Under the pieces are notes generated by a model. That model was not told where the DNA came from. It was given only the letters and a program-made list of their open reading frames with translations, and searched no databases. A program made the position numbers and the translations under genes. DNA of 30,545 nucleotides from Candidatus Sumerlaeota bacterium (lineage in GTDB: Bacteria; Sumerlaeota; Sumerlaeia; JAFGJS01), in assembly GCA_016928995.1 (NCBI GenBank), contig JAFGJS010000138.1:1-30545 (forward strand), in the 5' to 3' direction. Shown here piece by piece: positions 16,756-20,962 of the stretch; positions within the stretch are counted from its first letter, which is position 1, and each line of letters opens with the position of its first letter.

Positions 16756-17754
16756 ATGTCCCCTTCTATCACTGATATTGCTGAAAAAGTTCTTGAATTT
16801 AATAGCCGTAAATATGAGCAAGGTTGGTCTTTTTCGCCTGTCGTCATTGAATCGTTGTTCAAATCTGATCGAATCGGAAATGATGAACGTAAAATTTTAA
16901 CGAGCCTGTTTTTGATGCAATTGGCTGACTGGACGAATCAATCCGCTGAATTGTTGGTTGAATCGTTACTTTTAACGAAGCATCATAGAAATATACTCTT
17001 ACCACATGCAAACAGGGGCATCCTTGAGCGTCTTTGCAATGTTGTTCTGGTCTCTATGGGTGAACAAAAGATGCGGGAGAATTTCTGTATTCATCTATAT
17101 CTTAAGGATTTGGAGCTTTATCGCAAGGCATGCGAATATGATCTCGAAGACCTCAATTTTAAATCAGACGATTCCTGCCAAAGCGCCAATAATACATGGC
17201 TTGGTGAGTTTGAAAAGTTTAAATCGTTGGCGATGAAATATGGATATAAAAACTCATCGCTTAGAGAGTACAATACTAATAAAAGCCAAGTGCTATATGC
17301 TTCAAAATTATTGGGTATGCCAAAGCTGGCTGGGTATTATTTCAAAGGGAATCAATTGGTTCACAGCGGATATATTAATTGCCGGTTACAGGATCATGGT
17401 TTGATTGTATTACGTGACCGTGGCGCAGGCACAGCTGGCATAATGACCACTTTACAAGAGGGAGTGTGCTTTTTTCTTTGTCACTTAACGGTCATTTTTG
17501 AAAATCTTTTGAATGATGCTGGAGGATTGGCAGAGCTCAAGCAAATCGATACGGAAATTTATGATGTATTCCTTCGCCCTGAACGTGAAAAGAGAGCAGC
17601 CGCGCGTAGAAAGAAGATGAAAACGAAAAAATCATCAGGATTTCAAGAGGCATATGAAGATGATTTGAAATACTGGCAAACGATGACACCAGAGCAAAGA
17701 CTTGATGTTTTTATAACCTTAAGGCGCGACGCTGAATTCTATCATGGGGTGTAA
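16756..17754 (+). CDS. Unknown protein partnered with a nucleotidyltransferase (DUF5677-like N-region, antitoxin-like C-tail)
   Basis: 332 residues, no signal peptide or membrane segment. I do not recognise the protein as a whole. Residues about 30-260 are helical, with HANRGILERL and YYFKGNQLVHSGY, features reminiscent of DUF5677/HEPN-like helical domains (low confidence). A Lys/Arg-rich hinge (EREKRAAARRKKMKTKKS) precedes the last approximately 30 residues, YWQTMTPEQRLDVFITLRRD. These resemble the short stand-alone YW-x-TPEERL proteins that I recall directly upstream of AbiEii/DUF6036-type nucleotidyltransferases. The nucleotidyltransferase starts 5 nt after the stop, so the two are co-translated. 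AGAGAGGTG precedes ATG 16756. G+C is visibly lower than in the neighbours, suggesting transfer. Likely the partner (antitoxin or sensor) of the downstream enzyme. Confidence 0.7.
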   Translation: MSPSITDIAEKVLEFNSRKYEQGWSFSPVVIESLFKSDRIGNDERKILTSLFLMQLADWTNQSAELLVESLLLTKHHRNILLPHANRGILERLCNVVLVSMGEQKMRENFCIHLYLKDLELYRKACEYDLEDLNFKSDDSCQSANNTWLGEFEKFKSLAMKYGYKNSSLREYNTNKSQVLYASKLLGMPKLAGYYFKGNQLVHSGYINCRLQDHGLIVLRDRGAGTAGIMTTLQEGVCFFLCHLTVIFENLLNDAGGLAELKQIDTEIYDVFLRPEREKRAAARRKKMKTKKSSGFQEAYEDDLKYWQTMTPEQRLDVFITLRRDAEFYHGV

Positions 17755-17759
17755 TAACG

Positions 17760-18224
17760 ATGCTGCCTGTTAGCGAGTTTGAAGATTTTATGCTGTGCCT
17801 GGAAAACAACAATGTCCGCTATCTTATCATCGGCGGAGTTGCGTTTATCTTTCATGTGAAACCGCGCTACACGAAAGACATTGATATTTGGATTGAATGT
17901 GAGCCTGAGAACATCAGGAATGTAAACAAGGCTTTAGTTGAGTTCGGAAGTCCGTGCTTATTCGATGAAGATGATACGGACGCAGTGCTGCAAGTCGGAG
18001 TAGAGCCTAACCGCATTGATTTGATTTTGAATGTTGAAGAAATGAATTTTGAGAAAGCATGGAAGGCAAGAGTCGTTAATAAATATGGCGCTGCGACTGT
18101 AAACTGGATTGGAATCCAGGATTTGTATGAAATCAAGAGCAAGATTGACCATCCCCGTCATCAGAGCGATGCGATGGATTTGAAGTGGGTGCTGGAACAT
18201 CCACCGGAAAAACCTGAGAAATAG
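17760..18224 (+). CDS. Minimal nucleotidyltransferase (AbiEii/MNT/DUF6036-like), probable toxin or effector
   Basis: A 154-residue Pol-beta-superfamily nucleotidyltransferase. The signature is complete: YLIIGGVAFIFH (the GG of motif I), then RYTKDIDIWIE with the DxD metal pair, then NRIDLILNVE with the third acidic residue. The family also includes AbiEii-type toxins and MNT antitoxins, which transfer nucleotides to tRNA or protein. With an intact active site, the enzyme is expected to be active. It starts 5 nt after the preceding gene and shares its AT-richer composition, so the two form a module. The gene encoding the inactivated transposase homologue starts 10 nt later but has different composition. 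Toxin, antitoxin or housekeeping role is inferred from family and pairing only. Confidence 0.85.
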   Translation: MLPVSEFEDFMLCLENNNVRYLIIGGVAFIFHVKPRYTKDIDIWIECEPENIRNVNKALVEFGSPCLFDEDDTDAVLQVGVEPNRIDLILNVEEMNFEKAWKARVVNKYGAATVNWIGIQDLYEIKSKIDHPRHQSDAMDLKWVLEHPPEKPEK

Positions 18225-18233
18225 CGACGAACG

Positions 18234-18827
18234 ATGTTTCCCAACGAGGCGCTGCGGAATTTTATACAGGATGAGCATCGGCCCCGGATGAGCGGCGCGG
18301 ATTTCTTGGAAGGGGAGGTCGCTGTTTTTCTGGCGCTTTGCGCGAAAGGGCTGTCCATCATGGGCGCGTCGCCATTGAGGCTTGCGCAATGCGAGATGCG
18401 GATTATCGGGGCGTTCAAGCGCCAGTGCATCGCGGTGCATGGCTGGTGTTTTTTGCCGGACTGTTATGCGGTCGTCGCGCAAGCGGAGAACGCGTCAGGC
18501 GCGGCGGAGTCGATCAAACGGTTTCACGGCAAATTAAGCGCGCAGTTCAACGCCGAAGACCGGGCGCCGCGCCGGGTCGTCTGGAGCAAGTTTCAAACGC
18601 GGCTGCTGGCGGACGAGAGCGCGCTATATGCGGCGCTGAACGCATTGCATCATGAACCGGTGCGGCGCGAGTATGTGCAGCGCTGGCAGGATTGGCCCTT
18701 TTCCAGCGCGCGGTTCTATCTGGAGCGCCTCGGGCGCGAGGAGACTGTCCGAATTTGGCGGCAATATCCTTGCGATGACGGCGTCTTTTTCGACGCGATG
18801 CACGGAAGTAAACAATCCACTCAATGA
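18234..18827 (+). CDS. Y1/RAYT-like transposase homologue lacking catalytic residues
   Basis: 197 residues matching the IS200-like/REP-associated tyrosine transposase fold: AVHGWCFLPDCYAVV, IKRFHGKLSAQFN, VVWSKFQTRLL, and LHHEPVRREYVQRWQDWPFS followed by SARFYLERLG. In active members the second strand reads PNHYHLL (HUH histidines) and the helix reads NYVHHNPV (nucleophilic tyrosine). Here these are PDCYAVV and NALHHEPV, so both histidines and the tyrosine are gone while the scaffold is kept. This points to a domesticated DNA- or RNA-binding protein rather than a decaying gene: there is no frameshift and the stop overlaps the next start as ATGA. G+C-rich, unlike the two genes before it. No terminal palindromes flank it as in a mobile element. 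Confidence 0.82.
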   Translation: MFPNEALRNFIQDEHRPRMSGADFLEGEVAVFLALCAKGLSIMGASPLRLAQCEMRIIGAFKRQCIAVHGWCFLPDCYAVVAQAENASGAAESIKRFHGKLSAQFNAEDRAPRRVVWSKFQTRLLADESALYAALNALHHEPVRREYVQRWQDWPFSSARFYLERLGREETVRIWRQYPCDDGVFFDAMHGSKQSTQ

Positions 18828-19483
18828 CTCTTGACAGGGATTGTTCAATTTGTGAACATCTATCCACCTTCATCTCACAGAGCAGCGCCGGAATGGAAGA
18901 AAGCCGCAAGACGATCAGTCAAAAAGACCGCGATTTGGAAATGCTTGAAATCATCGAGCGCTCGCAAGACGGCTCGATCAATCAGCGCGGGATCGCGCGC
19001 GAAACGCGCATGGCGCTTGGGCTGGTCAATTCCTGCCTGCGGCGGCTGGCGCGCAAGGGATTGGTCAAGGTCAAGGAAGCGCCGGGGCGGCGGTATCTGT
19101 ACTACCTGACGCCGAAAGGTTTCGCGGAAAAGAGCCGCTTGACCTATGAATACATCCGCTATTCGGTGCATTTTTACGGCGAGGCGCGCGAACGTTGCCG
19201 CAAGGCGATGGAGCAGCTGGCGAAGGAGCAGCGCACGCGCATCGCGCTGATCGGTGGCGGCGACCTAGCGGAAATCGCGTACCTGACCTTGCAGGAGCTC
19301 GGACTGGAGTTCGCCGGATTGTTCGATGATGAACGCGCCGGGCAGATGTTTTTCGGCGTCAAGGTGCGTCCGGTGCAGGAGGCTCAAACCGCCGCGTGCG
19401 ACGCCTGCATCTACACCGGGCTGCAGCATCCCGAGGAAAAAAAGCGTCTGCGCGAGCTCGATTATATCGAGATTTTCAGGTGA
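18824..19483 (+). CDS. Winged-helix regulator (EPS-associated MarR-like) with Rossmann-like C-terminal half
   Basis: 219 residues from ATG 18824, which overlaps the preceding stop by 4 nt; ATG 18893 (MEESRKTISQ) would give 196 residues and fits the family better. The winged helix (about 35-105) reads QRGIARETRMALGLVNSCLR (recognition helix), then RKGLVKVKEAPGRRYLYYLT. It resembles the MarR-type regulators found in exopolysaccharide clusters. The C-terminal half has RIALIGGGDLAEIAYLTLQE and GLFDDERAGQMFFGVKV, a glycine-rich Rossmann/CoA-binding-like fold close to the N-terminal domains of NeuD-type and redox-sensing proteins, so it may sense a nucleotide-type ligand. Its target is probably the flavoprotein and glycan genes that follow. 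Coupled translation implies function with the inactive transposase homologue. Confidence 0.8.
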   Translation: MTLDRDCSICEHLSTFISQSSAGMEESRKTISQKDRDLEMLEIIERSQDGSINQRGIARETRMALGLVNSCLRRLARKGLVKVKEAPGRRYLYYLTPKGFAEKSRLTYEYIRYSVHFYGEARERCRKAMEQLAKEQRTRIALIGGGDLAEIAYLTLQELGLEFAGLFDDERAGQMFFGVKVRPVQEAQTAACDACIYTGLQHPEEKKRLRELDYIEIFR

Positions 19484-19512: not shown

Positions 19513-19539
19513 ATCTTGTCGATCCTGTTCATCCCGTCA
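19513..19539 (+). repeat. 9-nt degenerate tandem repeat (ATCCTGTTC type)
   Basis: Three contiguous nonamers, ATCTTGTCG, ATCCTGTTC and ATCCCGTCA, followed by AAATAAA and the flavoprotein ATG at 19547. I recall ATCCTGTTAATCCTGTCAAAA-like strings as a widespread intergenic repeat (read as NPVNPVKK when translated). As at 14975-14998, the repeat sits where a Shine-Dalgarno would be expected. Confidence 0.6.
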
Positions 19540-19546
19540 AAATAAA

Positions 19547-20962
19547 ATGCAACCATCCCATCCAAAAATCTTGATCATCGGCGCCGGTCCAACGGGCTTG
19601 GGCGCGGCGCATCGTTTGCAGCAGCTCGGCCATGACGATTGGATGCTGTTCGAGCAATCCGGCGAGGCGGGCGGGCTGGCGCGCAGCGTGACCGATGAGC
19701 ATGGCTTCACCTGGGACATCGGCGGGCACGTGCAGTTTTCGCACTACAAGCGCTTCGACAATCTGATGGACGCGGCGCTCGGACCGGATGGCTGGCTGCA
19801 TCATGAGCGCGAAAGCTGGGTGCGCATCCTCGGCGTGTGGGCGCCGTATCCGTTTCAAAACAACATTCATCGTCTGCCGGAAACTGAGCGCCAGCGTTGT
19901 ATTGAGGGGTTGCGCCGTGCGGCGCAGCGATGCGCGCCCCAGGATGGCTATGCCAATTTCGGCGAGCTGATCGACGACTGCTTCGGCGAGGGCGTGGCCG
20001 CGCTGTTCATGCGGCCGTATAATTTCAAGGTCTGGGCCTATCCCCCGGAGCAGCTCGGCGTCAACTGGCTGGGCGAGCGGGTGGCGCATCCCGAGCTGGA
20101 GAAGATCGAGCGTTCGTTGCAGACGGGGGAGGACAACGTTTCCTGGGGGCCGAACAACACCTTTCGCTTTCCCCGGCATGGCGGCACGGGCGCAGTCTGG
20201 CGCGCCGTGGCGCAAGGTTTGCCGCAGGAGAAACTGCGTTTCAATTGCCCGGTCGCCGGGATCGACGCGGACAAGAAAATCGTGCGGCTGGAGAACGGCG
20301 AGGAGCATCCCTACGACTGGCTGATCAGCAGCATGCCGCTCGATCTCTTGATCGAAAAGGCGCGGCTGGAAAGCCTCGCCCCGCATGCCGCCCGGCTGCG
20401 CTGCTCTGCTGTACATATCACGGGCATCGCGTTAAAAGGCCAGCCGGGTCCGCAGGTCAACGGCAAATGCTGGATGTACTTTCCCGAAAGCAACTGCCCC
20501 TTTTATCGCGTCACGGTCTTCAGCAACTACAGTCCGAACAATGTGCCGGACATCGAGCGCTATTGGTCCTTGATGACCGAAGTATCCGAGTCGCCTGCCA
20601 AATCCGTGGACGTAGCGCGCGTCGAGGAAGACGTGATCCAGGGCGCGTTGAACGCCGGGCTGATCGAGAGCCGCGATCAGGTTCATCATACGTGGAGCAT
20701 CCGCGTGGGCCATGGTTATCCTACTCCTACGCTCGGACGCGACGAAGCGCTGAACGAGTTGCTCCCCGCGCTCGAACACCGCGGCATCCTTTCGCGCGGC
20801 CGCTTTGGCGCATGGCGCTACGAAGTCTCCAACCAGGACCACTGCATGATGCAAGGCGTCGAAGCCGTGCATCGCATCCTGTATGGCACGCCCGAACTCA
20901 CCGTCTGGTTCCCCAATATCGTCAACAATCCTCATCCTGCTTTCAGCCGGGATTGGATTTGA
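19547..20962 (+). CDS. FAD-dependent oxidoreductase, UDP-galactopyranose mutase/protoporphyrinogen-oxidase-like
   Basis: A 471-residue flavoprotein. The N-terminal dinucleotide-binding motif is KILIIGAGPTGLGAAHRL (residues 7-24), followed by FEQSGEAGGLARS, WDIGGHVQFSH and, late in the chain, GRFGAWRYEVSNQDHCMMQG, a segment characteristic of the UGM-like amine-oxidase-fold proteins in polysaccharide clusters. Such enzymes act on nucleotide-linked sugars or on polyprenyl-linked intermediates; the reaction is not certain. It lies 63 nt after the winged-helix regulator and converges on the minus-strand glycosyltransferase operon. No Shine-Dalgarno is visible; the 9-nt repeat occupies the leader. 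True UDP-galactopyranose mutase activity is unproven, as the sequence diverges from the classical enzyme. Confidence 0.85.
   Translation: MQPSHPKILIIGAGPTGLGAAHRLQQLGHDDWMLFEQSGEAGGLARSVTDEHGFTWDIGGHVQFSHYKRFDNLMDAALGPDGWLHHERESWVRILGVWAPYPFQNNIHRLPETERQRCIEGLRRAAQRCAPQDGYANFGELIDDCFGEGVAALFMRPYNFKVWAYPPEQLGVNWLGERVAHPELEKIERSLQTGEDNVSWGPNNTFRFPRHGGTGAVWRAVAQGLPQEKLRFNCPVAGIDADKKIVRLENGEEHPYDWLISSMPLDLLIEKARLESLAPHAARLRCSAVHITGIALKGQPGPQVNGKCWMYFPESNCPFYRVTVFSNYSPNNVPDIERYWSLMTEVSESPAKSVDVARVEEDVIQGALNAGLIESRDQVHHTWSIRVGHGYPTPTLGRDEALNELLPALEHRGILSRGRFGAWRYEVSNQDHCMMQGVEAVHRILYGTPELTVWFPNIVNNPHPAFSRDWI

Follow-up and report, generated by a model that had tools for sequence, protein, structure and literature searches.

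Does the transposase-like gene at positions 18234-18827 of the window (the whole stretch of DNA that was analysed, 30,545 nucleotides from a 4.5 Mb draft genome split into 161 contigs) still encode a retained protein after losing its active site, and does that protein act together with the winged-helix regulator gene that follows it? The original prediction had joined the two genes, proposing a domesticated Y1/RAYT transposase that shares an ATGA with a regulator of the exopolysaccharide-associated MarR type and binds nucleic acids in the control of glycan genes. Our analysis separates them. We consider it probable that 18234-18827 is a single-copy, catalytically dead RAYT kept as a folded protein, and that the winged-helix gene is an independent unit and a mere neighbour. 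The features on which the argument draws are the following.

18234-18827, plus strand: catalytically dead RAYT/TnpA-REP homologue of 197 amino acids, with CYA for the HUH motif and Ala for Tyr137 (open reading frame, NF047646, alignment).
18462-18470, plus strand: TGT TAT GCG, encoding Cys77-Tyr78-Ala79 at the HUH position (alignment; second His in 63/63 relatives).
18642-18644, plus strand: codon GCA, Ala137, at the site of the nucleophilic Tyr (alignment; Tyr in 63/63 relatives).
18824-18892, plus strand: upstream extension of the winged-helix reading frame, probably untranslated (non-coding-like codon usage; missing from homologues).
18831-18859, plus strand: candidate promoter/operator of the winged-helix gene, TTGACA, 17 bp, TGT-GAACAT with a weak -10 (suggestive, from the sequence).
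18842-18858: palindrome TGTTCA-N5-TGAACA, inside the candidate promoter stretch 18831-18859.
18893-19483, plus strand: winged-helix MarR_EPS-like regulator with a C-terminal Rossmann-like stretch, 196 amino acids from the likely ATG at 18893.

The first gene is an uninterrupted frame of 197 codons, free of frameshifts as had been predicted. It matches the NCBIfam model for REP-associated tyrosine transposases (NF047646) with an E value of 8e-11 and 42 bits, below the curated cut-off of 80 bits, and comparison with intact members leaves the RAYT homology clear (E values down to 4e-36). Pfam gave no match for this protein and PADLOC returned nothing for it; a PDB sequence search produced no hit. 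An Alphafold2 model built from three sequences only reached a mean pLDDT of 55, with 69-78 in the best core blocks. Foldseek searches with this low-confidence model placed TnpA-REP (4er8) first (E 1.3e-5) and also recovered IS608 TnpA (E 7e-4), fold matches that are in line with the sequence homology.

Relatives were sought in about 820 genomes from its own phylum, represented by 40 genomes, and two other phyla. This search yielded a coherent RAYT subfamily across several bacterial phyla, recognisable by LPNHYHxL and ATxNYxHHNPVxHGY motifs, followed by WQxWPxSS and a conserved tail. Among the 63 members that we aligned and compared with the window protein, the second His of the HUH motif and the nucleophilic Tyr are present in 63/63 and the first His in 61/63. 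At these three columns the window protein carries Cys, Ala and Ala. The homologue alignment that the original prediction had called for thus bears out the substitutions it described, at positions kept in 61-63 of the 63 relatives. The Asn of the NP motif (N141) is also replaced, by Glu, giving A-x3-EP instead of Y-x3-NP. Of the features by which RAYT membership was judged, the protein lacks both the HUH motif and the nucleophilic Tyr in Y-x3-NP. Each of the three catalytic codons lies at least two base changes from any His or Tyr codon; the loss is therefore not a recent single hit. As His77 and His79, which bind the metal, the nucleophilic Tyr137 and the conserved N-terminal region have all been lost, established Y1 chemistry would leave the protein unable to cut or rejoin single-stranded DNA.

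Within this alignment, all three catalytic residues are lost only in the window protein. The same genome holds four other RAYT/Y1 relatives with HUH and Tyr intact, and a second copy lacking both motifs was not found in the approximately 820 genomes; the dead copy, present in one genome, is a singleton. No RAYT relatives were found in viral contigs, plasmids or phage records. Two of the aligned relatives, L047 and L077, have lost the first HUH His alone (NYYH and NQYH, with Tyr and Gln, respectively) but still have the second His as well as the nucleophilic Tyr; they are possible early steps of inactivation.

What the protein has kept is distributed unevenly. Hydrophobic columns are retained at 44/46 positions, a level typical of intact relatives, and conserved C-terminal columns at 13/14, whereas the columns around the HUH and Tyr motifs are retained at 11/24 and those of the conserved N-terminus at 5/17. 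The difference between C-terminal tail and active site is significant (Fisher p 0.005). Codon usage and GC3 resemble those of resident genes. In neutral simulations, the probability of encountering no stop was 0.0055 at 45% amino acid divergence, and the frame stayed open in 0/1500 runs in which all catalytic codons were required to have changed this far. The model used simple mutation with indels left out, so these figures overestimate frame survival; it also took the divergence to have come after the loss. A protein whose fold constraint was kept while its catalytic constraint disappeared fits these patterns best, and a retained, non-catalytic protein accounts for them better than plain neutral decay.

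The strongest alternative is nevertheless ordinary decay, in which an inactivated RAYT drifts neutrally, without function, its frame open by luck. Its terminal branch in the tree is long, at 1.62 where the median is 0.38; of 40 near-invariant columns it has lost 18, the N-terminus is gone and the gene occurs once. Such losses have precedent. In the survey of Quentin et al. 2018 (PMC6006769), homologues without core motifs are described as probably non-functional, and about 200 of 924 were discarded on that basis, leaving 722 for analysis. The open frame and resident codon usage speak against drift, as does the erasure of the active site beside a preserved hydrophobic core and C-terminal tail, a combination that the neutral simulations fail to reproduce. 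Decay as the whole story is weakened by this result, and we regard it as unlikely. Some of the evidence cuts the other way: the branch length and lost columns would also suit relaxed constraint, and both the weak Alphafold2 model and the lack of an orthologue in the genomes searched count against a retained protein. Selection may also have been released only recently, after a long divergence.

A functional tie to the genes directly upstream is very unlikely. Positions 16756-18224 hold a gene for a 332-amino-acid protein and a DUF6036-like nucleotidyltransferase gene, both on the strand of the RAYT; 9 bp separate this stretch from it. With a GC content of 39-43% amid surroundings of 55-60%, they look like an acquired cassette. 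The RAYT itself has a GC content of 60%, which points to different histories, and no such neighbour accompanies any of the 63 relatives.

The link to the downstream gene turns in part on where that gene begins. The TIGR04176 (MarR_EPS) model matches the reading frame 18824-19483 from residue 35 only (E 7e-15). We found 31 homologues of the winged-helix protein, 30 from another phylum that include the C-terminal part and a more distant one from its own phylum. In 26 of these, the alignment starts at residue 28 or beyond. Their possible starts lie some 10-20 residues upstream of the first conserved motif, and in several a stop codon bounds the start region at about that distance. Over its first 23 codons the 18824 frame scores -0.43 bits per codon, whereas the remainder reaches +0.45. 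Given these N-termini and this codon usage, translation likely begins at ATG 18893, 15 residues before the motif, which would leave about 65 bp between the two genes. The ATGA overlap that had been taken as a gene junction is probably an artefact of choosing the first ATG, and translational coupling through it was rejected on the same grounds. RNA folding of the junction gave a z of 0.36.

The would-be intergenic stretch contains TTGACA, a 17 bp spacer and an extended but poor -10 box, which the promoter scan did not call. The palindrome within it occurs exactly at two places genome-wide. Together these elements are suggestive of the regulator's own putative promoter and operator, although one palindrome within so short a stretch does not make a strong case for an operator. 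An imperfect copy with two mismatches lies at 19526-19542, shortly upstream of the FAD oxidoreductase gene at 19547, and could be due to chance.

The regulator scores 54.9 bits against the TIGR04176 cut-off of 88. The proposed kinship with exopolysaccharide-associated MarR-type regulators holds as a relationship, in keeping with the glycan cluster around the gene, but not at the level of the curated family. GT2, TMEM260-like and FAD oxidoreductase genes lie beside it, and its homologues adjoin flippase, NAD-epimerase and GT2 genes; on this evidence it is truly linked to glycan genes, and this link does not depend on the RAYT. As a MarR_EPS-like gene within a glycan cluster it is ordinary, and it would act as a self-standing regulator there, with the RAYT as a neighbour only. 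PADLOC returned weak CARF-associated wHTH look-alikes for this protein, and its single-sequence Alphafold2 model was too poor for use. Eight homologues from another phylum (L098, L099, L102, L105, L108, L111, L114 and L117) have nucleotidyltransferase-like or HepT-like genes, of toxin-antitoxin type, downstream.

A winged-helix homologue was found in the flanks of 0/63 RAYT relatives and a RAYT in the flanks of 0/31 winged-helix homologues. The flanks spanned about 1.5 kb and some loci end at contig edges, so a few distant pairs could have been missed; a gene directly alongside would in most cases have been detected. No neighbouring family is common to more than two loci among the 63 relatives. 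This random mix of neighbours is the outcome that the original prediction had itself named as speaking against a regulatory partnership. The check it had proposed, whether dead versions always precede the winged-helix gene, meets one dead copy and no paired relative, and a conserved pair was rejected on these counts. A co-translated pair that binds DNA structures and controls glycan genes, suggested by adjacency on one strand and by the glycan clusters of the winged-helix family, is thus the least probable reading, highly improbable given the absent co-occurrence, an overlap built on a probably wrong start codon and a single known instance. The two genes most likely lie side by side by chance.

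Of the domesticated-binder proposal, the loss of catalysis and the better fit of a retained non-catalytic protein stand, and the glycan-regulatory partnership falls away. The dead RAYT has kept its hydrophobic core and C-terminal tail, and we hypothesise that it most likely persists in a folded state in which it could still bind nucleic-acid hairpins without cutting them; perhaps it would exert weak regulation or compete with an active relative. A general repeat scan of its flanks showed no dominant REP-like hairpin. That selection maintains it as such a binder, either as a regulator recognising nucleic-acid structure or as an anti-RAYT, rather than as the winged-helix protein's partner, is a tentative proposal that we hold to be doubtful.

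The prevailing view of RAYTs is that they are transposase relatives which have been domesticated, occur in single copy and still work through cleavage of single-stranded DNA. In the classification of TnpA-Y1 proteins by Quentin et al. 2018, RAYT/TnpA-REP proteins form class 2 (PMC6006769). The window protein resembles this class (NF047646, 4er8) over its full length, with about 26-41% identity to intact members, and shares the core hydrophobic pattern, W117, N136, the PV of Y-x3-NPV and the C-terminal W-x2-WP-x-SS with its tail. Unlike them, it has CYA for HUH, Ala for Tyr and Glu for N141 of Y-x3-NP, lacks the N-terminal WRK/PWHRPPH region and scores below the NF047646 cut-off. Motif-less relatives are not new as such, having been recorded in that survey (PMC6006769); the retained core and tail are the less usual feature. 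The gene amounts to one inactive relative within a known family, not a new regulatory pair, and as one example only it is a lead rather than a system. The winged-helix domain of the downstream protein covers nearly the whole TIGR04176 model and shares the glycan-cluster location, but the protein scores 54.9 against 88 bits; it also has an additional Rossmann-like part at its C-terminus, common to the homologues found.

A further parallel is with laboratory mutants of Y1 enzymes, ISDra2 Y132F (2xo6) and TnpA-REP Y115F, the latter a catalytic-Tyr mutant used in vitro (PMC8266576). These likewise lack the nucleophile, and a DNA-bound structure exists for such a mutant. Their use in vitro makes binding without cutting plausible for the dead RAYT. 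Whereas they are engineered single changes, the window RAYT represents a natural loss of all catalytic residues. If our reading is true, a natural RAYT that has shed its catalytic residues and kept its core and tail separates binding from cutting and shows a second step of domestication.
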